Part shown: in pieces, positions 13,852-30,507 of the stretch
Numbering within the stretch: position 1 is the first letter of the stretch
Layout: each line of letters starts with the position of its first letter
Source: Lentzea indica
GTDB taxonomy: Bacteria > Actinomycetota > Actinomycetes > Mycobacteriales > Pseudonocardiaceae
NCBI RefSeq assembly: GCF_012184385.1
Contig: NZ_VSRL01000044.1
Span: 1 to 50,134 of the forward strand
Length of the DNA: 50,134 bases
Direction of reading: 5' to 3'
Notes under the pieces: model-generated
Databases searched by the model: none
Seen by the model: the letters and a program-made list of their open reading frames with translations, nothing else
What the model was told of the DNA's origin: nothing
Made by a program: the position numbers and the translations under genes

Positions 13852-14454
13852 TCACCCGGTTTCCCGCAGCAACGGGGTCTCAACCCGCCTGAGCGGGCGT
13901 GGCGGTTTCGTCACATAGGGCCTAACGAGACGGGTCAGGGCCAGACCAGGGGCGATGAGCGGGACCACGGCGGTCAGCACGGCGGCTGTGACGCCGGCTC
14001 GCATCACGTCCTTCGGCATGACGGCGACGCGGTCGACGACGAACGCCCGCCGTCCGGTCAGGGACACCGCCGCGAGGATGACCAAGAACACGACCATGCT
14101 GAGCATCGCGCGTTGGACCGCATGCTCGTACCCGGCTGCTTCTCCCGCGACCAGGACCGCGAACCAGCCGGCGAGCGCGGGCAGCTGCCCCTGTTCGGTG
14201 GTGGCGGCCCAGCTCAGACCGCCGATCGTGGCGAGCCAGGCGAGGACGTCGGCGCGTTCCTGCGCCCAGACGGATGCCGCGTCGAGGGGAATACCGGTCC
14301 AGGCGAGTACGCCGAGCGGCCTGATCGGGGTGTCGGCGAGTTGGCCGAGCACCCAGGCGAGTGTCCACGCGGACATCAGCACCGCGACGGCCAGCTGCCA
14401 CCGAGGCCTTCGCACCACACAGCGGGCGAGCCGGACGATCTCCGCACGCGTCAT
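13852..14454 (-). CDS. Multi-pass membrane protein of unknown function
   Basis: 200 aa from ATG 14454, preceded by GGTGGGGGG; a longer frame from 14511 has no ribosome site. About five or six hydrophobic segments are visible, for example AVAVLMSAWTLAWVLGQL, MLSMVVFLVILAAVSL and AGVTAAVLTAVVPLIAPGLA. The C-terminus is basic and cytoplasmic-like. No catalytic motif is recognised. It forms a two-gene unit with the small membrane protein that follows. Confidence 0.65.
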   Translation of the reverse strand: MTRAEIVRLARCVVRRPRWQLAVAVLMSAWTLAWVLGQLADTPIRPLGVLAWTGIPLDAASVWAQERADVLAWLATIGGLSWAATTEQGQLPALAGWFAVLVAGEAAGYEHAVQRAMLSMVVFLVILAAVSLTGRRAFVVDRVAVMPKDVMRAGVTAAVLTAVVPLIAPGLALTRLVRPYVTKPPRPLRRVETPLLRETG

Positions 14455-14578
14455 ACCCCCCACCATGCCGTTTCCAGGTGGTTTGCGGAGAAACGTCACC
14501 CCAACGCTCACCCGCCCGGCCCCCGTCCGAGCGCGTTCATCACGCAGCGCAATCCACGATCGGGGGACAGATCTTTCC

Positions 14579-14593
14579 TATGCTGAGTACATG
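14579..14593 (+). promoter_or_regulatory. -10 box of a leaderless marR transcript
   Basis: TATGCT at 14579-14584 lies six bases before the ATG of the MarR gene. No Shine-Dalgarno sequence fits in between, so transcription probably starts at or next to the ATG. Leaderless genes are common in actinomycetes. Confidence 0.5.
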
Positions 14594-15031
14594 AGCATCG
14601 ATCAACTTCTGCGTCTTCCCAGCTACCTGATGCTCCAGCTCGTGCGGGAAGCACGCAGGATCGGCCGTGCCGACCTGTCCCAAGGTCTCCACTGGCCTCA
14701 CCTGACGGTGCTCGCGTACCTCGCGGAGCAGGAAGCCGTGGCGCAGAAGCGGATCAGCGACAGGGTGCGGATGGACGCCAGCGACCTCGTAGCAACCCTG
14801 GATGATCTTGAAGGTTGGGGGTTCGCCCAGCGCAAGAGGGATGAGCGGGATCGGCGGCGGTTCACCGTGGCGATCACGGACGAGGGCAGAGAGGCCCTGC
14901 GCGAGCGGTTGGAGGCGGCACGGGCGCATGAGGAGGAGCTGCTGGCGCCGTTGACGCCGCACGAGCGCATCGTGTTGACCACACTGCTGCGGAAGGCGTA
15001 CCTACACCACGCTGATTTGCGTGTAGATTAG
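14591..15031 (+). CDS. MarR-family transcriptional regulator
   Basis: 146 aa. Winged-helix core: WPHLTVLAYLAEQEAVAQKR, then ISDRVRMDASDLVATLDDLE as recognition helix, then the wing KRDERDRRRFTVAITDEG. It likely binds as a dimer and responds to a small phenolic or antibiotic ligand. It appears leaderless (see 14579). It lies 100 bp upstream of, and on the same strand as, the HelD-type helicase and two NACHT genes, so it is the best candidate regulator of that set. Confidence 0.88.
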   Translation: MSIDQLLRLPSYLMLQLVREARRIGRADLSQGLHWPHLTVLAYLAEQEAVAQKRISDRVRMDASDLVATLDDLEGWGFAQRKRDERDRRRFTVAITDEGREALRERLEAARAHEEELLAPLTPHERIVLTTLLRKAYLHHADLRVD

Positions 15032-15131
15032 ACAGTCTGCGCTCACGCGAACCCGGCGCGGGCAGTGCGCATTAACTACAGTTCTACCAGGGCGATACCT
15101 GATAGAGCACAGTATCGAGAAAAGAGGCACG

Positions 15132-17399
15132 TTGTCAAGCCCCTCCGATGACCTCCGGCTCGCCGAAATGGAGCCGGAGCAGGAATACGTGGCCATGTTG
15201 TACGGCCGGCTCGACGACCTCCGCGAACAGACGTCGAAACGACTCGCACAATCGTTGCGACAAACTGGCGGCACGCACCAGATGCGGTCCGAGCGCGACA
15301 CCTCCGTCGCGATGTACACAGATCAATTGGCTCAGTACAGCGCGGTCGAGAACGGACTCGCCTTCGGCCGGCTCGATTTCCACAACGGTGACCGCTTCTA
15401 CATCGGCCGAATCGGTCTCTTCGACGAGGACAAGGAATACGAGCCGCTGCTGATGGACTGGCGCGCACCCGCCGCCAGGCCGTTCTACCTCGCCACCGCC
15501 GCCTCGCCCGACGGTGTGCGGCGGCGCAGGCACCTGCGGACCCGCTCGCGCAAGGTGATCGGCCTCGACGACGAAGTGCTCGACATCAACTCGGTCCACG
15601 CGTCGCGCAGCGAGAGCCTGACCGGCGAGGCGACGCTGCTGGCGGCGTTGAACGAGTCGCGCACCGGCCAGATGAGCGACATCGTCGCGACGATCCAGGC
15701 GGAGCAGGACGTCATCATCCGGTCCGAGCTGAACGGCGTCGTCGTCGTGCAGGGCGGTCCGGGTACCGGCAAGACCGCGGTGGCCCTGCACCGTGCCGCC
15801 TACCTGCTGTACACGCATCGCCGGCAGCTGGCGAAGCGCGGTGTGCTCGTGGTGGGCCCGAACACGACGTTCCTGCGCTACATCAGTCAGGTTCTGCCGT
15901 CGCTGGGTGAGACCGGCGTGCTGCTGTCGACCGTGGGCGAGCTCTACCCCAACCTGACGGCGACGGGCCGCGAGTCCGCCGACGTCGCCGCCATCAAGGG
16001 CCGCATCCAGATGGCGGACGTGATCGCCGCGGCCGTGCGCGACCGCCAGGAGGCGCCGCCGTTCGTCGAGATCCGTTTCGACAACGACGTGCTGCGCCTG
16101 GACCGGCGAGCGATCTCCGACGCGCGGGGCAGGGCGCGCCGGACCCGCCGCCCGCACAACGAGGCGCGCCGCACGTTCGCCCGCGAGATCATCTCGACGC
16201 TGGCCTCGATGGTGTCCTCCCGTCTTGGTGGGCATCTGCTCGACAAGGCGGACATGGACGACATCCGCCGCGAGCTGCGCGAGTCCGAGGAGGTCCAGGC
16301 CGTGATCTCGTCGCTGTGGCCGGTGCTGACGCCGTTCTCACTGCTCTCCGAGCTCTACGCGAACCCGAAGCGCCGCAACCGCGCGATGTCGAAGTTCACC
16401 CGCGAGGAACGCGATCTGCTGCAGCGCGTTGGTGATGACTGGACTCCGGCGGACGTGCCGCTGCTGGACGAGGCCGCGGAGCTGCTCGGCGAGGACGACA
16501 CGGAGGCCAAGGCCCGCGCCGAACGCCAGCGGCGCCAGGCCATCGAGTACGCCCAGGGCGTTCTCGACATCCTCGACCTCGAGGACGACGCGGACCCGGA
16601 CATCCTGATGGCCACGGACCTGATGGACGCGTACCGGCTGGCCGAGCGCCACGGCGTGGACCGCTACGAGACCGCCGCGGAACGTGCCGCCGCCGACCGC
16701 ACCTGGACGTTCGGCCACATCATCGTGGACGAGGCCCAGGAGCTCTCGGCGATGGCGTGGCGCACGCTGATGCGCCGCTGCCCCAGCAAGTCCATGACGG
16801 TTGTCGGTGACATCGCACAGACCGGTGACATCGGCGGCGCCACCTCGTGGGGTTCCGTCCTGTCGCCGTACGTGCAGAACCGCTGGCGTCTGACCGAGCT
16901 GACCGTCAATTACCGCACGCCCGCCGAGATCATGGAGGTGGCCGCGGACGTGCTCGGTTCCGTCGGCTCCTCCCTGGTGCCACCGACGTCCGTGCGGGAA
17001 ACCGGTGTGGCGCCTTGGGTTTCCTCGGTGTCGTCGTTCGACGCGGAGGTGCCGGGCTTGATCGCCTCGGAGGTCACCGCCGTCGGTGACGGCAAGATCG
17101 CGGTGATCGTGCCCGGCGCGCTGCTGTCGTCGGTGGGTTCGTCCGTGGTCGCTTCGGTGCCGGGGGCGTCGCTGGGCAACGACCTGGAGGAGGCTCAGGT
17201 CGTGGTGCTCGGGGTGACCGACGCGAAGGGCCTGGAGTTCGACTCCGTGGTCGTGGTCGATCCGGATGGAATTCTCGAGGAGTCGCCGCGCGGCGCTTCG
17301 GATCTGTACGTCGCGTTGACTCGTGCCACGCAACGACTTGGCGTCGTGCACACCGGATCGCTGCCCGATGTGCTATCCCGGCTGAAGGACGTTTCGTAA
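15132..17399 (+). CDS. helD: HelD/HelR-type RNA polymerase-associated SF1 helicase
   Basis: 755 aa from TTG 15132, behind AGAGG. The N-terminal arm (about residues 10-75, EPEQEYVAMLYGRLDDLREQ) is the coiled-coil that in HelD enters the polymerase channel. RIGLFDEDKEYEPLLMDWRA is the conserved HelD strand region. Walker A is GGPGTGKT (208-215) and Walker B is HIIVDEAQEL (about 533-542). Further motifs are VVGDIAQTGDI, LTVNYRTPAEIMEVA and C-terminal YVALTRATQRLGV. HelD proteins displace nucleic acid and rescue stalled RNA polymerase; the Streptomyces relative HelR also confers rifamycin tolerance. Length is near that of actinobacterial members. The stop is 19 bp before the first NACHT gene, which suggests co-transcription. 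Confidence 0.88.
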   Translation: MSSPSDDLRLAEMEPEQEYVAMLYGRLDDLREQTSKRLAQSLRQTGGTHQMRSERDTSVAMYTDQLAQYSAVENGLAFGRLDFHNGDRFYIGRIGLFDEDKEYEPLLMDWRAPAARPFYLATAASPDGVRRRRHLRTRSRKVIGLDDEVLDINSVHASRSESLTGEATLLAALNESRTGQMSDIVATIQAEQDVIIRSELNGVVVVQGGPGTGKTAVALHRAAYLLYTHRRQLAKRGVLVVGPNTTFLRYISQVLPSLGETGVLLSTVGELYPNLTATGRESADVAAIKGRIQMADVIAAAVRDRQEAPPFVEIRFDNDVLRLDRRAISDARGRARRTRRPHNEARRTFAREIISTLASMVSSRLGGHLLDKADMDDIRRELRESEEVQAVISSLWPVLTPFSLLSELYANPKRRNRAMSKFTREERDLLQRVGDDWTPADVPLLDEAAELLGEDDTEAKARAERQRRQAIEYAQGVLDILDLEDDADPDILMATDLMDAYRLAERHGVDRYETAAERAAADRTWTFGHIIVDEAQELSAMAWRTLMRRCPSKSMTVVGDIAQTGDIGGATSWGSVLSPYVQNRWRLTELTVNYRTPAEIMEVAADVLGSVGSSLVPPTSVRETGVAPWVSSVSSFDAEVPGLIASEVTAVGDGKIAVIVPGALLSSVGSSVVASVPGASLGNDLEEAQVVVLGVTDAKGLEFDSVVVVDPDGILEESPRGASDLYVALTRATQRLGVVHTGSLPDVLSRLKDVS

Positions 17400-17418
17400 C
17401 GAACGTTTGGAGGCCTGG

Positions 17419-20031
17419 GTGGCGAGCGTGGACGCGGCGGTCGGCCGCATCGTCGTGTCCGTGAGCAACCAGCTCGCCCCCAGGCTCTCCCAGCTCGTTC
17501 CTCCCCCACCGCCGGACGTCGACCCGGTGTTGCTCGGCTACCTGGAGTCCCCCGACTTCGCCGAGGTGGCGCGCCAGGTCGTGCTGTGGCGGGCGATGCG
17601 CGGTTCGCTCGACTCCGGCCTGTCCGCCGACCTGCGCGAGCAGATCGTCCAGGGCCTGCGCCTGTCCGGTGCGTCGGCTGACCCGAAGGCGGTCTTGGAG
17701 GCACTGAGTTCCGCGGAACCGTTGCGGACGGGCGACCTCGACACTCCGACCGCGGTCGGGGTCGCGCACCTGGCGAGTGCCGTCAAGAACAACACTCTCG
17801 TGCTGCGGCGAGCGCCGTCGCTGGCCGACTTCCACGACTACGCCCGCCAGTTGCGTGCTCGCATCGCCGCCATGCACGGCGAGATGCGATTACCTCACAT
17901 CGGGGTCAGTCGCTCCGTGCCGTACGACGAGCTGTACGTGCGGCCGACTTTGTCGCCCGACATCGCGGTCTCCGACCTGACTTCGCCTGGCCGTCGCACC
18001 GTGCTGCTCGGCGATCCCGGCGCCGGAAAGTCCACCCTGGCAGGAAAACTCACCCACGACATCGCTCTGGGTGCTGACGAGCGGGTCCCGTTCCTGTTGG
18101 TGCTGCGCGACTTCACCACGTCGTTCCGCCAAGGCGGCCGCGAGCTGCTGAAGTACTTCGAACACATCTGCAGCGACCCGTACAACCTCACGCCCCCGCG
18201 CGACGCCGTGGAATACCTGCTGCGCAACGGCCGCGCCGTCGTCGTCCTGGACGGCCTGGACGAGCTCGTTCAGCCCGAACTGCGGCGCCGCGTGGTCCGG
18301 CTGGTCGAGGGCTTCACGCACCAGTACCCGTTGACCCCGATCGTCGTGACCGCCCGCAAAGTCGGCTATCTCGAAGCGCCCCTGAGCGAGTCGCTGTTCA
18401 CCGTGGGCAGCGTCGACGACTTCGACTCCGGCCAGGTCGCCGACTACGCCACGCGCTGGTTCGCACTGGACGCCGCAACGCCTTCGCACCAACGGGCCCG
18501 GCTCGCGGACGCGTTCCTGAGCGAGAGCTCCGAGATCGAGGAGCTGCGCCGCAACCCGTTGCTGCTGGCCCTTTTGTGCGCCATGTACTCGAGCGAGCAC
18601 TACCTGCCGCGCAACCTCGCCCAGGTCTACGAGCGGTGCGCCGTGATGCTGTTCGACCGCTGGGACTCCATGCGCGGCATAGCCCTACCCGTGCAGTTCC
18701 AAGGTCGGTTGAGGGCTGCGGTGCAACACCTCGCGTGGTACCTGTTCGCCGGCCCCGAGCCCGGCAGTGCGTTGCCGCGCAGCAGAATCGTGAAGCTGCT
18801 CGCCAACTACCTCGTGACGAAGTCGTTCGACCCGGACGAGGCGGAGGGCGCGGCGGAGCGTTTCACCGAGTTCTGCACCGGCCGGGCGTGGATCCTGACC
18901 GATGTCGGCGCGAACGCGAGCGAGCCGTTGTTCGGCTTCACCCACCGGACTTTCATGGAGTACTTCGCGGCCGAACACCTGGTCCGCAAGCACACCACCG
19001 CTTCCTCGCTGTGGACCGCCCTGCGCTCACACGTGTCGGAGGGTTCTTGGGACGTCGTCTGCCGCGTCGCTCTGCAGCTGCACGACCGCAACGTCGAGGA
19101 CGGTGCGGACGACGTGCTGTCGCTGGCGATCCGCGACGGTGAGCTCGTCTTCGCGGCGGAGGCACTCCGCTACCTGACGCCCCGGCCGGACATCGTCCGC
19201 GGCATCGCCATGGCCTCCCTCCGCCAAGCGGTGGCTGTTCCTCGTCAGAGCCGCGTCTCCTACACCCTGCGTGTTCATTCGGCCATGGCGGATCTTCCCC
19301 TGACGAGCTGCCTCCTGCTGAGCCTTCCGGCGAACGCCACCATCGTCTGCCACGCAGTGGTCGAGGAGGTCAGCCGGCTTTACGACGAACGGAACACGGC
19401 GATCCCCCACCTCGTCCGTGGCATGCTCGGGCACACAGCGCTGTCGGGCACAGAGCTGCAGTCACAGGTGCACGACATCTATTGGCGAGCGACTGACGGG
19501 GATCTGCTCCAGGCACCGGGGCCATGGCTGAGTGACATGGACGGCCTGGCCGACCTCACCGCACTCGTGAAGAACCTCGGCCCTCGGACCCTGTTCGAGG
19601 GCTACTCGTTCCTCGGCCGGACCACCCCAGCGCCGGTGGTGACACTCCTGTTGTTCCCCAACAACTTCACACCCGCCAGCCGCGCGGTTCTGCGCCTGAC
19701 CGCGGAGATGGCCCGATCGCGGCGACCGTGGATCCAGTACGAGCACTGGGCTCGTGACCACGCCGTTGGGCTGAGTCTGGCACTGGAGCCACGTGGTGAG
19801 CTCGGTGCCGACCTCGAACACCTGCTCTGCCTGCCCTACCTCGAGGCCTACGTCGACTTCGACTTCGAGCTGCCGTTCGAGCTGACACCGGCTCTTGACG
19901 ACCTGGTCGACAGCCGCACCGCGGAGCCCAGCGGCGCCGCCATCCCCTGGACACCGCCGGAAGGCATGTCCGAGGAGGTGGCCGACCTGCTGGCCATGTG
20001 GACCACAAGGGACTTCAACGTCTTCGAATAG
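17419..20031 (+). CDS. NACHT-domain STAND NTPase, first of a tandem pair
   Basis: 870 aa from GTG 17419, five bases behind GGAGG. This start aligns the N-terminus exactly with that of the next gene (ASVDAAVGRIVVSVSNQLAP against PSIESAVIRVVVDVSDQLSP). The N-terminal helical domain is about 1-190, ending LPHIGVSRSVPYDELYVRP. NACHT NTPase: Walker A LGDPGAGKST (about 197-206) and Walker B VVVLDGLDEL (about 274-283), then a helical region with RRNPLLLALLCAMYS. A winged-helix segment near 510 has FTHRTFMEYFAAEHL. A C-terminal region of about 300 aa carries no recognised repeat and is probably the sensor. Bacterial NACHT proteins are known anti-phage sensors. No enzymatic effector domain is seen at the N-terminus. 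Confidence 0.9.
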   Translation: MASVDAAVGRIVVSVSNQLAPRLSQLVPPPPPDVDPVLLGYLESPDFAEVARQVVLWRAMRGSLDSGLSADLREQIVQGLRLSGASADPKAVLEALSSAEPLRTGDLDTPTAVGVAHLASAVKNNTLVLRRAPSLADFHDYARQLRARIAAMHGEMRLPHIGVSRSVPYDELYVRPTLSPDIAVSDLTSPGRRTVLLGDPGAGKSTLAGKLTHDIALGADERVPFLLVLRDFTTSFRQGGRELLKYFEHICSDPYNLTPPRDAVEYLLRNGRAVVVLDGLDELVQPELRRRVVRLVEGFTHQYPLTPIVVTARKVGYLEAPLSESLFTVGSVDDFDSGQVADYATRWFALDAATPSHQRARLADAFLSESSEIEELRRNPLLLALLCAMYSSEHYLPRNLAQVYERCAVMLFDRWDSMRGIALPVQFQGRLRAAVQHLAWYLFAGPEPGSALPRSRIVKLLANYLVTKSFDPDEAEGAAERFTEFCTGRAWILTDVGANASEPLFGFTHRTFMEYFAAEHLVRKHTTASSLWTALRSHVSEGSWDVVCRVALQLHDRNVEDGADDVLSLAIRDGELVFAAEALRYLTPRPDIVRGIAMASLRQAVAVPRQSRVSYTLRVHSAMADLPLTSCLLLSLPANATIVCHAVVEEVSRLYDERNTAIPHLVRGMLGHTALSGTELQSQVHDIYWRATDGDLLQAPGPWLSDMDGLADLTALVKNLGPRTLFEGYSFLGRTTPAPVVTLLLFPNNFTPASRAVLRLTAEMARSRRPWIQYEHWARDHAVGLSLALEPRGELGADLEHLLCLPYLEAYVDFDFELPFELTPALDDLVDSRTAEPSGAAIPWTPPEGMSEEVADLLAMWTTRDFNVFE

Positions 20032-20040
20032 GAGCTCTCG

Positions 20041-22605
20041 TTGCCCAGCATCGAGTCGGCGGTCATCCGGGTCGTCGTCGACGTGAGCGACCAGCTCTCG
20101 CCGCGACTGGCCGACAAGGTGGAGCTGCGACAGGCATCGGCGACGAGCGCGGCGACCGAGGCTCTCTTCAAGGACCTCCATCGTGCGGACGTGGAAGCGT
20201 TGGAGGCCTACCTGGACTCACCCGACTTCGCCACGGTCGTCGTCCAGAAGCGCATCGGCAACATGATGGGCAAAGCCGCCAAAGACCAGCTGCGCGAGGG
20301 ACTTCGGCTCGCAGGCCTGTCCGACCACCTGCTCACGCGGGTCACCGCCATCGTGCACGACGTCATGGTCGCGGCCTGCCAGGAGGCGGCGCCCCAGTTC
20401 AGCGGGCCCAGCGCCAAGATCGACCGCACCGATCTGTTCACCGCGGCTTCCGTCAACGGCCTCGTGCTCAAGCGGCTCAAGTCGTCCGCCCGCATCCACG
20501 CCTTCGCCGCCCGCATGCGAGACCAGGTCGCCGCGCTGCACAGCAGGATCAGGCTGCCGCACGTCGGGGTCAGCCGATCAGTCCGGTTCGACCAGCTGTA
20601 CGTGGAGCCCACGCTGGCCTCGCCGTTCGCCATGAGGCTCGGCGCTCCCGGCGAACGCGTCCTGGTGCAGGGCGATCCCGGTGCCGGCAAGTCGACGCTG
20701 GCCGCGAAGTTCGCGCACGACATCGCCGTGGACGGGTCCGGACGGGTGCCGTTCCTGTTGGTGCTGCGGGAGTTCGCCACCTCGTTCGACGGAGGTGGCC
20801 GCGATCTCGTCTACTACCTGGAGAAGCTTTGCCATGCGCCGTACAACGTGAAGCCACCGCGCGATGGCGTCGAGTATCTCCTGCGGACCGGTCGTGCGGT
20901 CGTGATCCTGGACGGGTTGGACGAGCTGGTGCAGACCGAGCTGCGCCGACGGGTTGTGTCGCTGGTGGAGGGATTCGCGCACCTGTACCCGTTGGTGCCG
21001 ATCCTCGTGACCGCGCGCAAGGTCGGCTATGAGGACGCGCCGCTGAGCGTGGACATGTTCATCCCGAGCCACATCGCGGAGTTCAGCGACAGACAGGTCG
21101 CCGACTACGTGACGCGGTGGTTCGAGCTGGATGAAGCCACCTCGCCTGCCGAACGCGAACAACTGATCAGGTCGTTCATGGAGGACAGCCGGCAGATCCC
21201 CGAACTACGCAGCAACCCGTTGCTGCTCACGTTGTTGTGCGCCATGTACTCCAGTGATCGGTACCTGCCGCGCAACCTCGCCCAGGTCTACGAGCGGTGC
21301 GCGTTGATGCTGTTCGAGCAGTGGGACTCGAAACGTGGCATCGCGCTGCCGCTCAAGTTCCACGGGCGGCTACGAGGTGCGGTGCAACACCTCGCCTGGA
21401 GGATGTTCAACGCCGCGGAGTCCGGCAAAGCGTTGTCGCGCACAAGAATCGTCAACATCCTCACCAGTTACCTGGACACCAAGCTCGACGACCGTGACGA
21501 GTCGGTGGCCATGGCGGAGGAGTTCCTCGCGTTCTGCACCGGCCGCGCGTGGATCCTCACGGACATGGGCGCGACCGAGTCCGAACCGCAGTTCGGCTTC
21601 ACCCACCGGACGTTCCTCGAGTACTTCGCCGCCGAGTACCTGGTGCGCACGCACCGCACCGCCGCCGAGCTGTGGGAGGTGCTGCGGCCGGAGGGCAGCC
21701 AGTGGGACGTCGTCGCGCAGATCGTGCTCCAGCTCTACGACCGCAACGTCGAAGACGGCGTGGACGAGCTGCTGACCGAAGCACTCGGCCGCGACGGGCT
21801 GGACTTTGCCGCCAGAGCGCTGCACTACACGCACCCCAGCACACGCGTCGTGCGGGCGATCACGACCAAAGCGCTGGGCATGGCGGTGGGCTTCCCGATC
21901 CAGCAGCGAATCACCGTGCACCACCAGCGGCAGGTTCTGACTGACGCCGCACTGGTCGCCTGCATGGTCAACGCCTCGCCCGTGAACCTGCCGATCGTCG
22001 AACAGATCGTCGCGGAGCATCTCGGCGAGCTGATCGCGCAACGGCACGAGGGCGCCGCGCTGGTGCTGGACCTCATGCTCAAGCCGGTGCGAGATGCGCA
22101 CCAGCGTTGGCAAGCAGTTCAACGCGATCTCGCGATCACACGCGCGGAAGACCTCGGCAAGTTGCGGATGGCGTCGACTTGGGCGGCGCCGCTCGCGCAC
22201 TCCGATCCCTCATTGCTGGAAGCGATCATTCGGCACCACGGTGTGAAGGCGCTGTACCACCGCTGCAGTTACTTCGACTGGACGGCGCCCAGCGTCGCGG
22301 AACAACTTCTCTGGTCGAAGGAGCTCACCTCGACTCAGGCGGCTGACCAGCTCGCTGTCACGATGACCGAGCAGGGCAGGCCCTGGTTCAACGGATCCGA
22401 GTTCAGGAGCTCGGACCTGCCGACGATTCCGGAGCTCGACCGCGAGGTCAGCGCGTTGGTGTTGATGCTCAGCCTGCCCTACCTCGAAGTCGACGGCAGG
22501 GCCCTGCACCAGCTGCCGCAGGACGCCAAGCTGCCCGAACCCGTGCGCGCATTCGTCAACGCCTGGATGAAGAACGAGCTCAGCGTGATAGACCGAGAGC
22601 GATAG
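20041..22605 (+). CDS. NACHT-domain STAND NTPase, second of a tandem pair
   Basis: 854 aa from TTG 20041, behind AGGAG, nine bases after the stop of its paralogue. Architecture is the same: N-terminal helical domain about 1-200 (LPHVGVSRSVRFDQLYVEP), Walker A GDPGAGKST (211-219), Walker B VVILDGLDEL (about 285-294), RSNPLLLTLLCAMYSSDRYL, and winged helix FTHRTFLEYFAAEYLV. The NTPase core is clearly more than half identical to the upstream protein, while the first about 140 and last about 250 residues diverge much more. This is the pattern of a duplication with diversified sensing or effector ends. The 3' end overlaps convergent crcB by 26 bp. Confidence 0.9.
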   Translation: MPSIESAVIRVVVDVSDQLSPRLADKVELRQASATSAATEALFKDLHRADVEALEAYLDSPDFATVVVQKRIGNMMGKAAKDQLREGLRLAGLSDHLLTRVTAIVHDVMVAACQEAAPQFSGPSAKIDRTDLFTAASVNGLVLKRLKSSARIHAFAARMRDQVAALHSRIRLPHVGVSRSVRFDQLYVEPTLASPFAMRLGAPGERVLVQGDPGAGKSTLAAKFAHDIAVDGSGRVPFLLVLREFATSFDGGGRDLVYYLEKLCHAPYNVKPPRDGVEYLLRTGRAVVILDGLDELVQTELRRRVVSLVEGFAHLYPLVPILVTARKVGYEDAPLSVDMFIPSHIAEFSDRQVADYVTRWFELDEATSPAEREQLIRSFMEDSRQIPELRSNPLLLTLLCAMYSSDRYLPRNLAQVYERCALMLFEQWDSKRGIALPLKFHGRLRGAVQHLAWRMFNAAESGKALSRTRIVNILTSYLDTKLDDRDESVAMAEEFLAFCTGRAWILTDMGATESEPQFGFTHRTFLEYFAAEYLVRTHRTAAELWEVLRPEGSQWDVVAQIVLQLYDRNVEDGVDELLTEALGRDGLDFAARALHYTHPSTRVVRAITTKALGMAVGFPIQQRITVHHQRQVLTDAALVACMVNASPVNLPIVEQIVAEHLGELIAQRHEGAALVLDLMLKPVRDAHQRWQAVQRDLAITRAEDLGKLRMASTWAAPLAHSDPSLLEAIIRHHGVKALYHRCSYFDWTAPSVAEQLLWSKELTSTQAADQLAVTMTEQGRPWFNGSEFRSSDLPTIPELDREVSALVLMLSLPYLEVDGRALHQLPQDAKLPEPVRAFVNAWMKNELSVIDRER

Positions 22606-22918
22606 CCGCCGCTCCTACACCGAGCACCACGCTGACCACGACGTTCTGCAGCGCCAGTCGGTACTTTTCCTGCTCCAGCAGCTTCACCGTCTCATAGCTG
22701 AAAGTCGAATACGTCGTCAGCCCGCCGCAGAACCCCAGCCCGAGCAACGGCATCCAAGACGTACCAACGACGAACCCGATGAGGAAGCACCCGACGACGT
22801 TCACCGTCAGCGTGCCCCAAGGGAAGTCCGACGAGTGCCGCGACTGCACGAACCGGTCGAGCAGGTACCGGCAAGGAGCCCCGAGAGCGGCACCGAGGAA
22901 CACCGCCAAGACGGTCAT
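22580..22918 (-). CDS. crcB: Fluoride channel subunit CrcB/Fluc
   Basis: 112 aa from ATG 22918, overlapping the upstream crcB stop by 4 bp; the longer frame from 22990 lies inside that gene. Conserved features: GAPCRYLLD, WGTLTVNVVGCFLIGFVVG (pore Asn), and GFCGGLTTYSTFSYETVKLL, which holds the Phe-box and Na+-site Thr/Ser. Four hydrophobic segments fit the family. Two adjacent unequal crcB genes usually encode an antiparallel heterodimer exporting fluoride down its gradient. It is co-transcribed after marR and crcB2. Confidence 0.93.
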   Translation of the reverse strand: MTVLAVFLGAALGAPCRYLLDRFVQSRHSSDFPWGTLTVNVVGCFLIGFVVGTSWMPLLGLGFCGGLTTYSTFSYETVKLLEQEKYRLALQNVVVSVVLGVGAAAIALGLSR

Positions 22919-23286
22919 CGCGTCACCCGCAATCCGATGAACGCCGCCGCCACAGCACAAACGGGCGTCAGCAACAGGTACGGCGACCACGACACCGCGT
23001 ACGACGAGAAGGTCGTGAAGCCGCCCAGCAGACCGACCCCGAAGAAGGCCCGCACCAACGGCCGCGGCACCAGTCCCATCAGCACGCCGATCAGGAACGA
23101 CCCCAGCACGTTGATGACGAACAGCCCCAACGGTCCCGGTACGAACGACGACAAGCCGTAGCGCGCCACGCCGCCGAGCCCGCCGCCCAAGGACACCAAC
23201 GCGACGAAGGGCAGGCCGAGCTCGCGGCGTTGGGCCGGGACGTGCAGGTCGACGTCGGGGTCTATCGGGTCAGGTTGGTTCGGCAA
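22915..23286 (-). CDS. crcB: Fluoride channel subunit CrcB/Fluc, partner
   Basis: 123 aa from TTG 23286, which overlaps the end of the MarR gene by 17 bp. A polar N-terminal tail of about 23 residues precedes the first helix. Conserved features: LGGGLGGVARYGLSS, GLFVINVLGSFLIGVLMG and GVGLLGGFTTFSSYAVS. It is the partner of the following crcB, with ATGA-type coupling. No crcB (fluoride) riboswitch was recognised before the operon. Confidence 0.92.
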   Translation of the reverse strand: MPNQPDPIDPDVDLHVPAQRRELGLPFVALVSLGGGLGGVARYGLSSFVPGPLGLFVINVLGSFLIGVLMGLVPRPLVRAFFGVGLLGGFTTFSSYAVSWSPYLLLTPVCAVAAAFIGLRVTR

Positions 23287-23710
23287 GGTGCTCGACCAGG
23301 TGGTCCAGGGCCTTCAGCGCGCGCACGACGTCTTCGCGCTCCGATGGCTCGAGTTTCGACAACGCGGAGCCGATTCGCTTCTCGTGTTCGCGCTGCCAGA
23401 CGAGGAGCTGTTCGTGTCCACGTTGTGAGACGGACAGTCGCGCTACCCGTCTGTCCTTGGGGTCTCCGCCGCGTACGACCAGGCCCGAATCGATCAGCTG
23501 GGACACCAGTCCCGACACGGTGTTGGGGGCGAGCCGGAGGACCCCGGCAAGATCGCCGACCTTCATCGGCGGGCGTTCCGCGAGGGTCTGCAGCAGCTCT
23601 ACCTGCGCCATCGGCAGGGATTCCCACGGCCAGTCCGCCCGGATGCTCGTCCGCAACGCCCTGCGCAGGCGTGTGACGACGTCGGTGAGCGTGCGGGCTT
23701 CGTCTGACAT
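23270..23710 (-). CDS. MarR-family transcriptional regulator
   Basis: 146 aa from ATG 23710. Winged-helix: PMAQVELLQTLAERPPMKVG, recognition helix APNTVSGLVSQLIDSGLV, and wing RGGDPKDRRVARLSVSQRG. It heads the marR-crcB-crcB operon by overlap, an unusual regulator for fluoride export. AGGA precedes the start. Its promoter would lie in, or next to, the right end of the TnpB element, so expression may have been altered by that insertion. Confidence 0.88.
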   Translation of the reverse strand: MSDEARTLTDVVTRLRRALRTSIRADWPWESLPMAQVELLQTLAERPPMKVGDLAGVLRLAPNTVSGLVSQLIDSGLVVRGGDPKDRRVARLSVSQRGHEQLLVWQREHEKRIGSALSKLEPSEREDVVRALKALDHLVEHLAEPT

Positions 23711-23839: not shown

Positions 23840-25006
23840 TCATGCGGCGGCGGAGTCGGGTGCGGGTCCGTTGACAAGAACCCACGCGCGCCGTGCTCGG
23901 TTGCGGATGTTCACGGCGGCGACGTGGTCGGCAGGTCCAGCGAGACCGCACCGACGACAGCAGAAATCGCCCCGAGCAGGCCGGTTGGCTTTCTCGGTGT
24001 GGCCGCAGCGCGGGCAACGCTGCGAGGTGTAAGCCGGGTCAACCTTGATTACCGGGATCCCGGCTCGGCGTGCCTTGTAGGCAATGACCCGTTGGAGATA
24101 AGCGAAGGGCCACGAGGACAAAGTGGCTCGCTGGTGCCGGGGAACCGTGACCCGGTCGCGGATACCGCCCAGTTCTTCCATGGCGATACCGCGGTCGGTG
24201 CGTTCGGCAACAGCCACAACGTCCTTCGCGATCCGATGGTTCACATGCTGGGCGTGCCGCCGCTCACGACGAGCGCGACGTTTCAGGCGCCGTCGGGCAG
24301 ATCCGGTCTGCTTGGTTTGGAGCCGGGTCCGCAGCCGGGCTTGCCACCGGCGATAGCGGCCCAGCCTGCGACCTGAATAGTTCGCGCCGTCGCTGGTGGT
24401 CGCCAGATTGGCGATGCCACAATCGATACCAAGCCAGTCGACCGGCTCGATCAGAGCCGGCTCGGGTATCTCACACGTCGCGATCAGAAGCCACATCCCG
24501 CCGCGGCACACCAGATCCGATTCGCCTCGCCGATGTTCACGCAGGAATCCCAACTGCTCGGCCGAGCCGGTGAACCGGAGACCCTTCACCCTGCCCATCA
24601 GAGTCCAGATGCTCACGGTCCGCTGGTCGTGGTTCCACGACAGACACCGGTCGTCGTAGGTGTGTGCGGCCTCGGCGCGGAACGTGACCGGCTTCGACTC
24701 CGCCTTGCGGCGTCGCTTCGACGCCGTGCCGCCGAGGTTCCCGGCACGGATGTTCGCGCGCAGCGCGGTACAGGCGTCGGCGACGCGTTTGATGACGTGC
24801 TGCGCTGCCTGCGCCCCTAGCCCACGGGCCTTCAGCTCGCCGTAGCAGAGCCTCCGCAGCTCGTGGACCGAGGCTCTGAGTCCGTGGCGTTCGAACCCGA
24901 CCGCGGATACCCAGTTCGCCCCGTCGTTGGCTGCGGACAGGGTCGCTGCCAGCGCCGACGCCTGCCCGGCGTCCGGCAGCAGCTTCACCTGCACGACGAT
25001 CTTCAC
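23840..25006 (-). CDS. tnpB: TnpB RNA-guided nuclease (IS605 OrfB family)
   Basis: 388 aa from GTG 25006 (MKIVVQVKLLPDAGQ, the usual TnpB opening). The RuvC site is present: Asp in LGIDCGIANLATTSDG, Glu in AMEELGGIRDR and the last acidic residue in PADHVAAVNIRNRARRAW. Zinc ribbon: CPRCGH and CCRRCG. A basic bridge region (RRRLKRRARRERRHAQHVNH) fits RNA binding. In IS605-type elements TnpB cuts DNA guided by an omega-RNA from the element's right end. All catalytic residues look intact, so the protein may be active, although no transposase accompanies it. In the third RuvC motif His-Val replaces the more common polar/Asn residues after Asp. Confidence 0.92.
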   Translation of the reverse strand: MKIVVQVKLLPDAGQASALAATLSAANDGANWVSAVGFERHGLRASVHELRRLCYGELKARGLGAQAAQHVIKRVADACTALRANIRAGNLGGTASKRRRKAESKPVTFRAEAAHTYDDRCLSWNHDQRTVSIWTLMGRVKGLRFTGSAEQLGFLREHRRGESDLVCRGGMWLLIATCEIPEPALIEPVDWLGIDCGIANLATTSDGANYSGRRLGRYRRWQARLRTRLQTKQTGSARRRLKRRARRERRHAQHVNHRIAKDVVAVAERTDRGIAMEELGGIRDRVTVPRHQRATLSSWPFAYLQRVIAYKARRAGIPVIKVDPAYTSQRCPRCGHTEKANRPARGDFCCRRCGLAGPADHVAAVNIRNRARRAWVLVNGPAPDSAAA

Positions 25007-27042: not shown

Positions 27043-29018
27043 GTGAACAGGATGGAACTTCCGGAGCTCGCCGCCCGCTGGATGCACGCGCTGACGTCAA
27101 CCGCGTACATCCCGCTGTCCCACGCCGAAATCCAGCAGGTTCTTCTCGATGCGCTCGTGGAGCTGCCGGAGTCACCTGAGTCGGTGGCCACTCGATTGGT
27201 GTCACTGCACGCAACCGGCCCTGACTCCTTGCGTGCCACGATCGACGTTCTTTCGCCCAAGTTCGAACTACCTCTGCTCGCCCGGTTGAGCTCCGCGTAC
27301 GCACACGCCATGCGACTGGACGCGTTCGACCAGCAGGAGCAGATCAAGGTCGCGATCGTGCGGGCCAAACAGCGGGTCGAGCGCACGCTGAAGGTCAGCC
27401 AGGCGCGGTTCCAGGAGGTGTTCGCCTCTTCCGCGCTGGGCATCGCGATCACCGGCTTCGACGGCAAGTGCGTCGAGGCGAACGACACGCTCGCCGAGAT
27501 CGTGGGCCTGGAGTCGGGCACCGACCTCATCGGGCGGCAGCTGATCGACTTCTTCCACCCGGAGGACAAGACCGCGCTGGCCGCCTCGTACCGGCAGGTG
27601 CGCGAGGGTCAGGTCGACAGGTTCCGCGACCAGCGCAAGCTGATCCGCGAGGACGAGGAGCCGGTGTGGGTGTACCTCGCGGCGTCGCTGGTGCGTGACG
27701 CGGACGGCGAGCCGGCGCACCACGTGACGATGGTCGAGGACATCAGCGACCTGCACCTGTTGCAGCGCAACCTGGACCACCAGCTGCTGCACGACTCGCT
27801 CACCGGGTTGTCGAACCGCCAGCACTTCATGACGCGGGTGGAACGAGGGCTCGGGGGCGACCCGATCACGTTGTACCACCTGGGTTTGGACGCGTTCTCG
27901 GTCGTGAACAACGGCCTGGGCCACGACACCGGCGACAAGCTGCTCAAGATCGTCGCCAACCGGCTCGGCAAGCTCGCCGGCGAGAAGAAGGCCGTGCTGG
28001 CACGGATCGGCGGCGACGAGTTCGCGATGATGACGTTCTCGGACAACGTCACCTCGACCATCGAGGAGATCCAGGACGCGCTCGCCGAACCGACCTTTGT
28101 GGACGATCACGGCATCGCACTGTCGGCGAGCATCGGCGTGGTCGACCGGCCGCCGGCGTTCGCGACAGCGGCCGAGCTGATGCGGTGTGCCAATGCCGCG
28201 CTGCGCCAGGCGAAAGCGCGCGGCAAGCGGCAGTGGGCCCTGCACGACCCGCACGACGACGCCCGCCGCCGCGGCAAGTACGCGCTGGCCGCGTCGATGC
28301 CGGGTGCGTGGGAGCACGGTGAGCTGGAGATCGTCTACGCGCCGGCGCACGACCTGGAGACCCGCGAGGTGCTCGGTGCCGTCGCCCGCCTGCACTGGGA
28401 CGACCTGAGCCACAACGACACGATGGCGCTCGCCGACTCGACGGGCCTGTCGCTGCCGATCGGCAGGTGGCTCCTGCGCGAGGCGTGCGCTCAGGCGGCG
28501 AGATGGGTGGCCGAGTTCGGCGACAGGGCGCCCGCGCTGCACATCGCGTTGGGCGCTTGCAGTCCCGCAACGAGGATCTCGTCGCCGACGTCAAGCGAGC
28601 GCTCGACGAGACCGGTCTGCCGCCGGAACGGCTGCGGATCGCGCTCGACATCTCGTCGGTGCTGGCCGGGGACGACAACGCGGTGGTGCTGCACGACAGC
28701 GGCATCGTGACGGCGCTGGACGGGTTCCACGGCGGGCACGACGAACTGTCCGTCCTGACCGAGGTACCGGTCCGCGCGGTGATCACGCGCGCACCCGCAC
28801 CGAGACCGGATTCCCCGCTGCGCCAGGCGATGCGGGACCTCATCGCGACAGTGCACAGCTTCGGCGTGCGATTCGGCGTCGACGAGGTGCACACCCTCGA
28901 GGAAGCCGAGCACTGGCGGTCGGCCGGCGCGGACGGCGTGATCGGGCTGCTGCCCGCCCTGACCGCGGCCGAGGTGACCGAACTGCTGGCGGCGTGGCCT
29001 GGAACGTTGCCGAGGTGA
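27043..29018 (+). pseudogene. PAS-GGDEF-EAL(degenerate) protein, interrupted by a 1-nt frameshift
   Basis: A helical N-terminal region (about 1-115) leads to a PAS domain (about 120-245, FQEVFASSALGIAITGFDGK). A GGDEF domain follows, with intact RIGGDEFAMM and no RxxD inhibitory site, so diguanylate cyclase activity looks possible. The EAL domain is degenerate: GAVARLHW stands where EALVRW is expected. Near 28550 the frame turns to nonsense, whereas another frame continues the EAL fold (LQSRNEDLVADVKRALDETG, then LPPERLRIALDISSVLA) to 29018. One missing base restores it, so sequencing error is likely. TTGGCC-N17-TACGCT (27012-27040) is a possible promoter. GTG 27043 or ATG 27052 may be the start. 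Confidence 0.85.
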
Positions 29019-29149: not shown

Positions 29150-30507
29150 CTACAGCTGCTTCACCGCCGCCAGAAGTTTGGTGAGCGAGTCCTTCGCGTC
29201 CCCGAACAGCAACGTCGTCTTCGGGTTGTACAGCAACTCGTTGTCCACGCCCGCGAAGCCGGGCCGCATCGAGCGCTTCATGAACACCACGGACTTCGCG
29301 CGGTCCACGTCGAAGATCGGCATGCCGTAGATCGGGCTGGACGGCTCGTCCCGTGCGCCGGGGTTCACCACGTCGTTCGCGCCGACCACCAGCGCGACGT
29401 CGATCGACGAGATGCCGGGGTTGATGTCGTCGAGCTCCTTGAGCTGCTCGTACGGAACGTCGGCCTCGGCCAGCAACACGTTCATGTGCCCCGGCATGCG
29501 CCCCGCGACGGGATGAATCCCGTACGACACGCTGACTCCGCGCCGTTCGAGCTGCGACACGAGCTCCCGTGCCGCGTGCTGTGCCTGCGCCACCGCGAGC
29601 CCGTAGCCGGGTACGACGACCACGTTGTTCGCGTATCCCAACAGGATCGCGACGTCCTCGACCGTGCCCGACTTGACCGACCGCTGCTCGTCCTGGTGCG
29701 CGGCAACGGTCGTCGCCTTGAACGCGCCGAACAGGATGTTCGCGAGCGATCGTCCCATCGCCTGCGCCATCAACCGGGTCAGGATGGTGCCGGACGCGCC
29801 GACGAGCGTGCCGGCGACGATCAGCAGCGTGTTCGCCAGCACGTAACCGGACGCGGCGACCGCGAGACCGGTGAACGCGTTGAGCAACGAGATCGCGATC
29901 GGCACGTCCGCGCCGCCGACCGGCAGCACGAACAGCACACCGAGCGCGAGCCCGACGACCGCCAGCAGCCACAGCAGGAAGCCGTTCGGCACCGCCATCG
30001 TCAAAGCGCACAGGCAACCGAGGAGGCACCGGCGGCGATCGCGAGCTGCTGCCCCGCCGGCAGGAGCACCGGCCGCGTGGTCATCAGCTCCTGCAGCTTC
30101 AGGAACGTGACCACCGAACCGGAGAAGCTGACCGAGCCGATCAGCACCGTCAGCACGGTCGCCAGCCGGAACATCACAGTGCTGTCCGGTACCGCGAAGA
30201 ACTCCGCCAACGCCACGAGAGCCGCCGCGGCACCACCGACTCCGTTGAACAGAGCCACCATCTGCGGGATGGCGGTCATCTTCACCGACCGGGCGGCCGG
30301 GATGCCCACCACCACACCGAGTGCGACGGCGACCAGGATCCACAGTCCGTTGTGGACTACGCCGTGCAGGTACGCGGTGACGACGGCGACCAGCATGCCG
30401 AACGCGCCGACGAAGTTGCCGTAGCGTGCGTATTTGGGTGAGCTCAAGCCTTTCAGCGCCAGGATGAAGCACAGCGCAGCGACGAGGTACATCAGCTGGA
30501 CGATCAT
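29150..30507 (-). pseudogene. pntB: NAD(P) transhydrogenase beta subunit, interrupted by a 1-nt frameshift
   Basis: The ATG start at 30507 overlaps pntAb by 4 bp. The N-terminal half (MIVQLMYLVAALCFILALKG, later TVLTVLIGSVSFSGSVVTFL) is the membrane domain. At about 30005-30020 this frame stops, and another frame carries on with NGFLLWLLAVVGLALGVLFV, the remaining helices and the NADP(H)-binding domain. The latter has GYGLAVAQAQHAARELVSQL, HPVAGRMPGHMNVLLAEADV and the C-terminus DSLTKLLAAVKQL. One missing base accounts for the break. With pntAa and pntAb it forms the proton-translocating enzyme that makes NADPH from NADH. The neighbours are intact and the family is conserved, so a sequencing error is the simplest reading. 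Confidence 0.9.

Follow-up and report, generated by a model that had tools for sequence, protein, structure and literature searches.

A pair of NLR-like NACHT genes was found behind the core gene HelD in Lentzea indica, likely co-transcribed with it, and we consider it somewhat probable (roughly 0.55) that the encoded proteins are predicted phage sensors that borrow the expression of HelD and not its activity. The genes lie in a window of 50,134 nucleotides (the whole stretch of DNA analyzed) from a genome of 9.97 Mb in 634 contigs. The two proteins, here termed NACHT-A and NACHT-B, are read as loss-prone predicted antiphage sensors carried on the HelD transcript. Counted in favor of this reading were the tandem itself, NACHT-like stretches in slots from which the genes are missing, the NACHT-B tree, the dN/dS of the C-terminal ends, the predicted NLR fold, TIR-fused relatives, and unlinked relatives placed shortly behind arbitrary genes. 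Counted against it were weak PADLOC and NCBIfam antiphage scores, ordinary whole-gene dN/dS, and the gaps of 81-246 bp in five slots that carry NACHT-B only.

HelD (15132..17399, + strand, 755 aa) starts at a TTG codon at 15132, upstream of which a GAGG was conserved in the alignment of 24 Lentzea genomes; based on the same upstream alignment, 15032..15131 is the presumed promoter/leader of the HelD-NACHT unit. NACHT-A occupies 17419..20031 (+) when read from GTG 17419, leaving a junction of 19 bp with GGAGG (17400..17418); an alternative TTG start at 17407 gives 874 aa and a gap of 7 bp. NACHT-B (20041..22605, +, 854 aa) follows after 9 bp. Its 3' end overlaps by 26 bp the first gene of a convergent crcB pair (22580-22918 and 22915-23286, - strand, both matching Pfam CRCB) that closes the slot at 22580..23286, and this crcB boundary was conserved in Lentzea and in the neighboring genus g6. 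The one-strand gaps of 19 and 9 bp reported by the first-pass annotation were thus confirmed, as was its naming of a HelD gene with two paralogous NACHT NTPases.

HelD, NACHT-A and NACHT-B are likely read as one message. A simple scan of 14400-23400, weak for Lentzea, detected neither promoter nor terminator on the + strand. With our own gene caller, the HelD-to-NACHT gap ranged from 7 to 246 bp across the 16 intact Lentzea slots; the five slots in which NACHT-B alone lies 81-246 bp behind HelD have room for a separate promoter.

The surroundings were not accepted as a defense island, since the named flank genes were ordinary. A TnpB/OrfB (IS605-type) gene lies at 23840-25006 (-) of the window between MarR-type and MFS genes; the latter two types lay near one another in many of the Lentzea loci retrieved, and TnpB/OrfB-like genes occurred elsewhere in locus L134 as well as, by reading, in L156. 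Two ORFs (282 and 168 aa) were called for the NAD(P) transhydrogenase beta gene at 29150-30507 (-), which is a single ORF of ~452 aa in relatives; this reflects either a frameshift or an assembly error. The GGDEF gene at 27052-28710 was called shorter than in relatives (552 vs ~657 aa).

HelD is a homologue of the class II RNA-polymerase recycling motors, as judged by full-length homology to the solved structure of Mycobacterium smegmatis HelD (PDB 6yxu; residues 12-751 to 9-721, 740 residues, E 3e-187). For the PCh-loop in the clamp-opening arm, the comparison covered this alignment, which crossed the middle of the protein with short gaps only. Matches to NCBIfam profiles were strong but below cut-off for motor_HelR_2 (776.5 bits, cut-off 1100, residues 12-751 to profile positions 4-713 of 713) and HelD_MYCSM (715.9 bits, equivalog cut-off 1051), and motor_HelR was below cut-off as well (466 bits, cut-off 750). 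The HelD product is likely to free RNA polymerase that has stalled. Removal of stalled polymerase is described for HelD proteins (PMC10719064), and class II HelD/HelR genes can be induced by rifampicin (PMC10719064, PMC8655204). PADLOC returned short UvrD-motif matches on HelD; assignment to Gabija was rejected, as the GajB models matched only such short stretches and the downstream genes had no GajA-type family match. A HelD paralogue elsewhere in the window's genome (L179, G000:C122:41000-54000) was split into ORFs of 156 and 559 aa, with one in-frame TGA reported.

Both NACHT proteins exceeded the Pfam NACHT cut-off of 26.7 bits (NACHT-A, 52.2; NACHT-B, 60.5) and were 47% identical to one another over 838 columns. 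The NACHT core maps to 17992-18465 in NACHT-A and to 20656..21126 in NACHT-B, where Walker A (GDPGAGKST) and Walker B (LDGLDEL) were evident, and these features place the proteins among bacterial NACHT/NLR-related proteins. An AlphaFold2 model of NACHT-B (pLDDT 88) had its best structural matches to NLRC4, NLRP3 and NOD2 over residues of about 148-684 and displayed the NLR-type layout of N-terminal domain, NACHT, winged helix and C-terminal repeats. The fold of NACHT-A and NACHT-B is predicted to be NLR-like. The N-terminal domain of NACHT-B (20041..20538) was all-helical in the predicted model and matched nothing in Pfam over cut-off (best E 0.08); modeled alone, it reached a pLDDT of 60, too poor for a structural search, and we make no claim on its fold. 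By Pfam, neither protein carried a recognized enzymatic domain besides the NTPase, nor a DNA-binding domain. PADLOC gave only weak matches (best E 0.0016), and scores were far below cut-off for the NCBIfam antiphage NACHT families EruA (29.7 of 1000 bits) and DS-8 (16.8 of 790 bits).

Among relatives of these NACHTs, two in Lentzea flava and L. terrae (L091:9362-12022 and L102:9314-11980) had a TIR/SEFIR domain fused before the same helical-NACHT-C core. A TIR/SEFIR domain ahead of such a core is an arrangement common in immune STAND proteins. Other relatives, not linked to HelD, trailed arbitrary genes, namely those for a short-chain dehydrogenase (45 bp), a VTT protein (42 bp), a GGDEF-EAL protein (74 bp) and an MFS protein (149 bp), or were found behind transporters or alone. 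In Cellulomonas sp. B6 (L093), a related NACHT gene lies between two ORFs whose translations resemble pieces of an M3-type peptidase gene, the downstream one carrying an HEFGH motif.

The domain content bears on two alternatives. In the first, the activated NACHTs, which are without the TIR of their relatives, would drive HelD to strip polymerase off DNA and so stop transcription. In its favor, NACHT-A and NACHT-B have no recognized enzymatic domain besides the NTPase whereas L091 and L102 add a TIR to the same core, and HelD proteins clear stalled polymerase (PMC10719064). We regard it as very unlikely, since five unlinked relatives (L087, L089, L094, L097 and L099) aligned over the same N-terminal domain at 21-30% identity with no HelD adjoining, and since HelD persists in genomes without the NACHTs. 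In the second, the NACHTs are non-immune regulators of the STAND type, with functions in stress, antibiotic response or development, whose expression would go along with that of HelD, as under rifamycin stress. A regulatory role is common among STAND proteins. Against this second alternative stand the lack of a Pfam DNA-binding domain in either protein, the NLR-type predicted fold, the TIR-fused relatives, and a history of loss combined with a fast-changing C-terminal end; we consider it improbable even with the rifampicin induction of class II HelD/HelR genes noted in PMC10719064 and PMC8655204.

Conservation of the arrangement was examined in loci fetched from the other 23 Lentzea genomes, from 17 further relatives and then from the remaining 14 g6 species, with genes in these relatives called by our own codon-usage caller trained on five window genes. 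HelD was present in all 24 Lentzea genomes (best match 88-100% identical). Between HelD and crcB, with the window's genome included, five genomes carried both NACHT-A and NACHT-B, nine NACHT-B only and two NACHT-A only; the remaining slots held a 274-aa fragment (one genome, G172) or nothing (seven). All 16 intact cases were oriented as HelD. The neighborhood, on whose conservation the first-pass annotation had made its proposal depend, was thus conserved, and 16 of the 24 Lentzea genomes carry an intact HelD-NACHT tandem. All 25 genomes of genus g6 had the HelD locus, with an intact NACHT in two (G243 and G365), a NACHT remnant in one (G394) and none in 22. Two g6 species (L147:6535-7771 and L153:6496-7747) had a gene for an ice-binding-like protein in the HelD-crcB slot instead of a NACHT gene; thus, the slot takes other cargo too.

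Similar counts were made over wider sets. Among named GTDB genomes, which overlap the genus set such that the two counts are not independent, HelD was upstream in the same row in 14 of 50 NACHT loci (13 labeled Lentzea and one labeled Nocardia sp. NRRL S-836, its HelD 92% identical), and no HelD was detected near the other 36 in the DNA examined around each. HelD appeared in the short flanks of 17 of 66 loci (L008-L073), every one of them a Lentzea slot locus. Among the matches listed for 249 family genomes, inspected by eye, no HelD/NACHT adjacency was seen beyond Lentzea and g6, and in the window's genome, the stretches of 12-13 kb retrieved for its three further HelD genes contained no NACHT.

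Most slots without intact NACHT genes retained NACHT-like traces. Six of the seven empty Lentzea slots had short stretches that matched NACHT ends: 49 of 51 bases matched the NACHT-B start in G161, and pieces of the NACHT-A start were matched, by small margins, in G171, G166, G156 and G154. For these five slots, none of 100 letter shuffles gave as good a match, and for G170 one of 100 did. The slot of G168, which is on the deepest branch, held no NACHT remnant (87 of 100 shuffles as good). The G172 fragment matched the NACHT-A start and the NACHT-B end (0 of 20 shuffles as good). Single-letter, not dinucleotide, shuffles were used, and outside of G161 and G172 the scores of 33-41 exceeded the shuffle maxima of 31-36 by little; B-only slots were not used for remnants because the stretch compared there included 20 bp from the start of NACHT-B. 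On a flank tree of ten proteins, G172, G161 and the group of G166, G156, G170 and G154 were on different branches. With slot states scattered in this way several losses are likely, the latter four genomes forming one clade that possibly records a single loss.

One clade of the tree built from flank genes was rejected by the NACHT-B tree (AU p 4.9e-5), which suggests exchange of NACHT-B between species; this clade had been chosen after the first NACHT tree was seen. NACHT dS was greater than HelD dS in 11 of 11 comparisons, and was the highest among all other flank genes tested in five of six comparisons for NACHT-B but in only one of five for NACHT-A; with the dS signal mixed, we take the case for exchange from the NACHT-B tree alone. 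Taken together, the NACHT cassette appears to have undergone loss and exchange next to a HelD gene that stayed stable.

The HelD-linked NACHTs did not form one clade (AU p 9e-5; at least two changes). Of 20 unlinked loci selected for the first NACHT tree, the 12 that yielded a gene were included. In a wider tree, built from 11 of the 23 HelD-linked rows with a simpler model and with long branches flagged, the g6 pair grouped with TIR-NACHTs (98/96) and the Lentzea rows grouped with unlinked rows of Amycolatopsis, Actinophytocola and Streptoalloteichus (96/94). When counted by hand on this wider tree, two captures behind HelD cost two changes and one old capture with departures cost three; thus, two separate captures are slightly favored, as far as these trees can indicate.

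The C-terminal ends of the NACHTs changed faster than the remainder. In NACHT-A, residue 601 to the end (counted from TTG 17407; 19207..20028) had a dN/dS of 0.43-0.58 compared to 0.07-0.14 for the NACHT-winged-helix part (five pairs); in NACHT-B, the same region (21841..22602), which is helical and the predicted sensor, had 0.49-0.71 compared to 0.10-0.17 (six pairs). The C-terminal value exceeded that for the NACHT core 3- to 8-fold in all 11 pairs, which share rows and are not independent, and the ratio is rough due to high C-terminal dS (up to 1.16). Column conservation likewise dropped at residue 601 in both proteins. The N-terminal domain of NACHT-B was also faster than the core (0.22-0.58). 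Over whole genes, dN/dS was 0.22-0.30 for NACHT-A and 0.26-0.39 for NACHT-B, not above two ordinary flank genes (GGDEF, 0.16-0.44; methyltransferase, 0.16-0.31), so only the C-terminal contrast within each protein counts. HelD had a dN/dS of 0.083-0.118 (seven of seven pairs), and 0 of 766 HelD columns distinguished the 16 Lentzea genomes with an intact NACHT in the slot from the remaining 8. A fast-changing ligand would fit the variable C-terminal end; the near-invariant HelD, which across the genus is 88-96% identical to the copy in the window, would not.

These results speak to the alternative that the NACHTs guard HelD, or RNA polymerase with HelD bound to it, and are triggered once a phage protein takes over the polymerase, the shared operon keeping guard and guarded protein in step. 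Host-dependent sensing has a precedent in bNACHT25 of E. coli, which depends on DnaJ and has been proposed to guard a host process (PMC12169576). The same NACHT subfamily is found behind HelD in two genera, the HelD 3' end was maybe captured twice given that the linked rows are not one clade, and sister NACHT clades follow recO and LigD-polymerase genes. On the other side, no HelD column tracks NACHT presence, HelD is near-invariant while the NACHT C-terminal end diversifies fast, NACHT relatives occur without an adjoining HelD, and HelD-type genes were found in all 24 Lentzea and all 25 g6 genomes, so that adjacency would be unneeded for guarding. We hold this alternative to be possible but rather unlikely: the evidence leans against HelD as the NACHT ligand. 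Of the first-pass annotation, the conserved tandem and the predicted immune type of the NACHTs (NLR-like model) stood, and its system for sensing or protecting RNA polymerase was not supported: HelD is kept without an intact NACHT in the slot in 8 of 24 Lentzea and none of its 766 columns follow NACHT presence, the stretches retrieved around the other three HelD genes of the genome contain no NACHT, the C-terminal ends diversify beside a near-invariant HelD, and relatives sit behind unrelated genes or alone. The possible double placement of NACHTs behind HelD counts against doubting the polymerase link.

The sister clades extend the question to other host genes. A second NACHT clade lay between recO and uppS (era-recO-NACHT-uppS) in 3 of 24 Lentzea (G152, G169 and G151) and also in Solihabitans fulvus, there with a GNAT-like gene (by reading) in between (loci L105, L106, L120, L121 and L211-L213). 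A third followed a LigD primase-polymerase gene with a gap of 31 bp in six of the seven Lentzea genomes with this clade (L113, L116, L117, L118, L122, L241-L245 and L247), the seventh (L246) being elsewhere. For the NACHT family of NACHT-A and NACHT-B, a post hoc hand count gave three maintenance hosts (HelD, RecO and LigD) among eight distinct contexts with a same-strand gap of ≤150 bp. Among the 32 NACHT-type matches listed for the window's genome, two are NACHT-A and NACHT-B; the neighbors of the other 30, three of them without a gene call, were viewed. Several of the weak matches resembled SARP/AfsR-type regulators by N-terminal sequence when their translations were read. One NACHT tail lay 66 bp behind a MerR-like gene (L184) and another 29 bp behind a CadD-like gene (L203), both named by reading translations; these two cases argue against genome-maintenance genes being the invariable hosts of such tails.

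With the sister clades behind recO and LigD-polymerase genes, the tailing of genome-maintenance genes by NACHTs may be a wider pattern, in which the NACHTs possibly serve as guards. It is conceivable, and in our estimate unlikely, that Lentzea carries a NACHT guard set in which each member tails the maintenance gene that it watches, i.e., HelD (for RNA polymerase), recO and the LigD polymerase gene. A phage that knocks out or takes over polymerase, a recombination factor or an end-joining factor would then trip the matching guard. The recO and LigD tails and the possible double joining to HelD would be odd if the host gene were irrelevant, and in this respect count against the sensor reading. 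Among the papers listed in literature searches, none described a link of HelD, RecO or LigD genes with NACHT genes, a weak result as 'HelD' also matches 'held'.

For the preferred reading, that of sensors expressed from the HelD transcript, the helical C-terminal part would bind a phage-derived or phage-altered ligand, the NACHT domain would drive ATP-dependent oligomerization, and the N-terminal helical domain would then halt or kill the cell. The duplicated NACHT-A and NACHT-B may split ligand ranges, and loss of one copy, or of the two together, would follow where cost exceeds benefit, with HelD staying. If the NACHTs are mere expression hitchhikers, then immune sensors can reside outside of defense islands, at the 3' ends of core genes, a location that co-localization methods would overlook. 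If they are instead guards of the preceding gene, gene order alone would reveal the machine watched by each bacterial NLR, the open question of bacterial NACHT ligands would become directly testable, and a true guard set would represent guard-guardee operons in bacteria.

Compared to known systems, Lentzea HelD shares a full-length alignment with M. smegmatis class II HelD (6yxu), and differs in scoring under the NCBIfam equivalog cut-off and in having NACHT genes behind it; it similarly covers the near-complete HelR profile (motor_HelR_2) with a sub-cut-off score. The Lentzea NACHTs have the NACHT core and NLR-like layout in common with bNACHT25, EruA and DS-8. They differ in scoring only weakly with the EruA and DS-8 families, in having no known effector domain and in tailing a core gene. 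With the animal NLRs NLRC4, NLRP3 and NOD2, the whole-chain Foldseek TM was only 0.17-0.35 by the query's length, and identity was 10-21% among the NLR matches listed; the N-terminal domain differs from that of the animal proteins, and the C-terminal part of the Lentzea NACHTs is, by contrast, helical.
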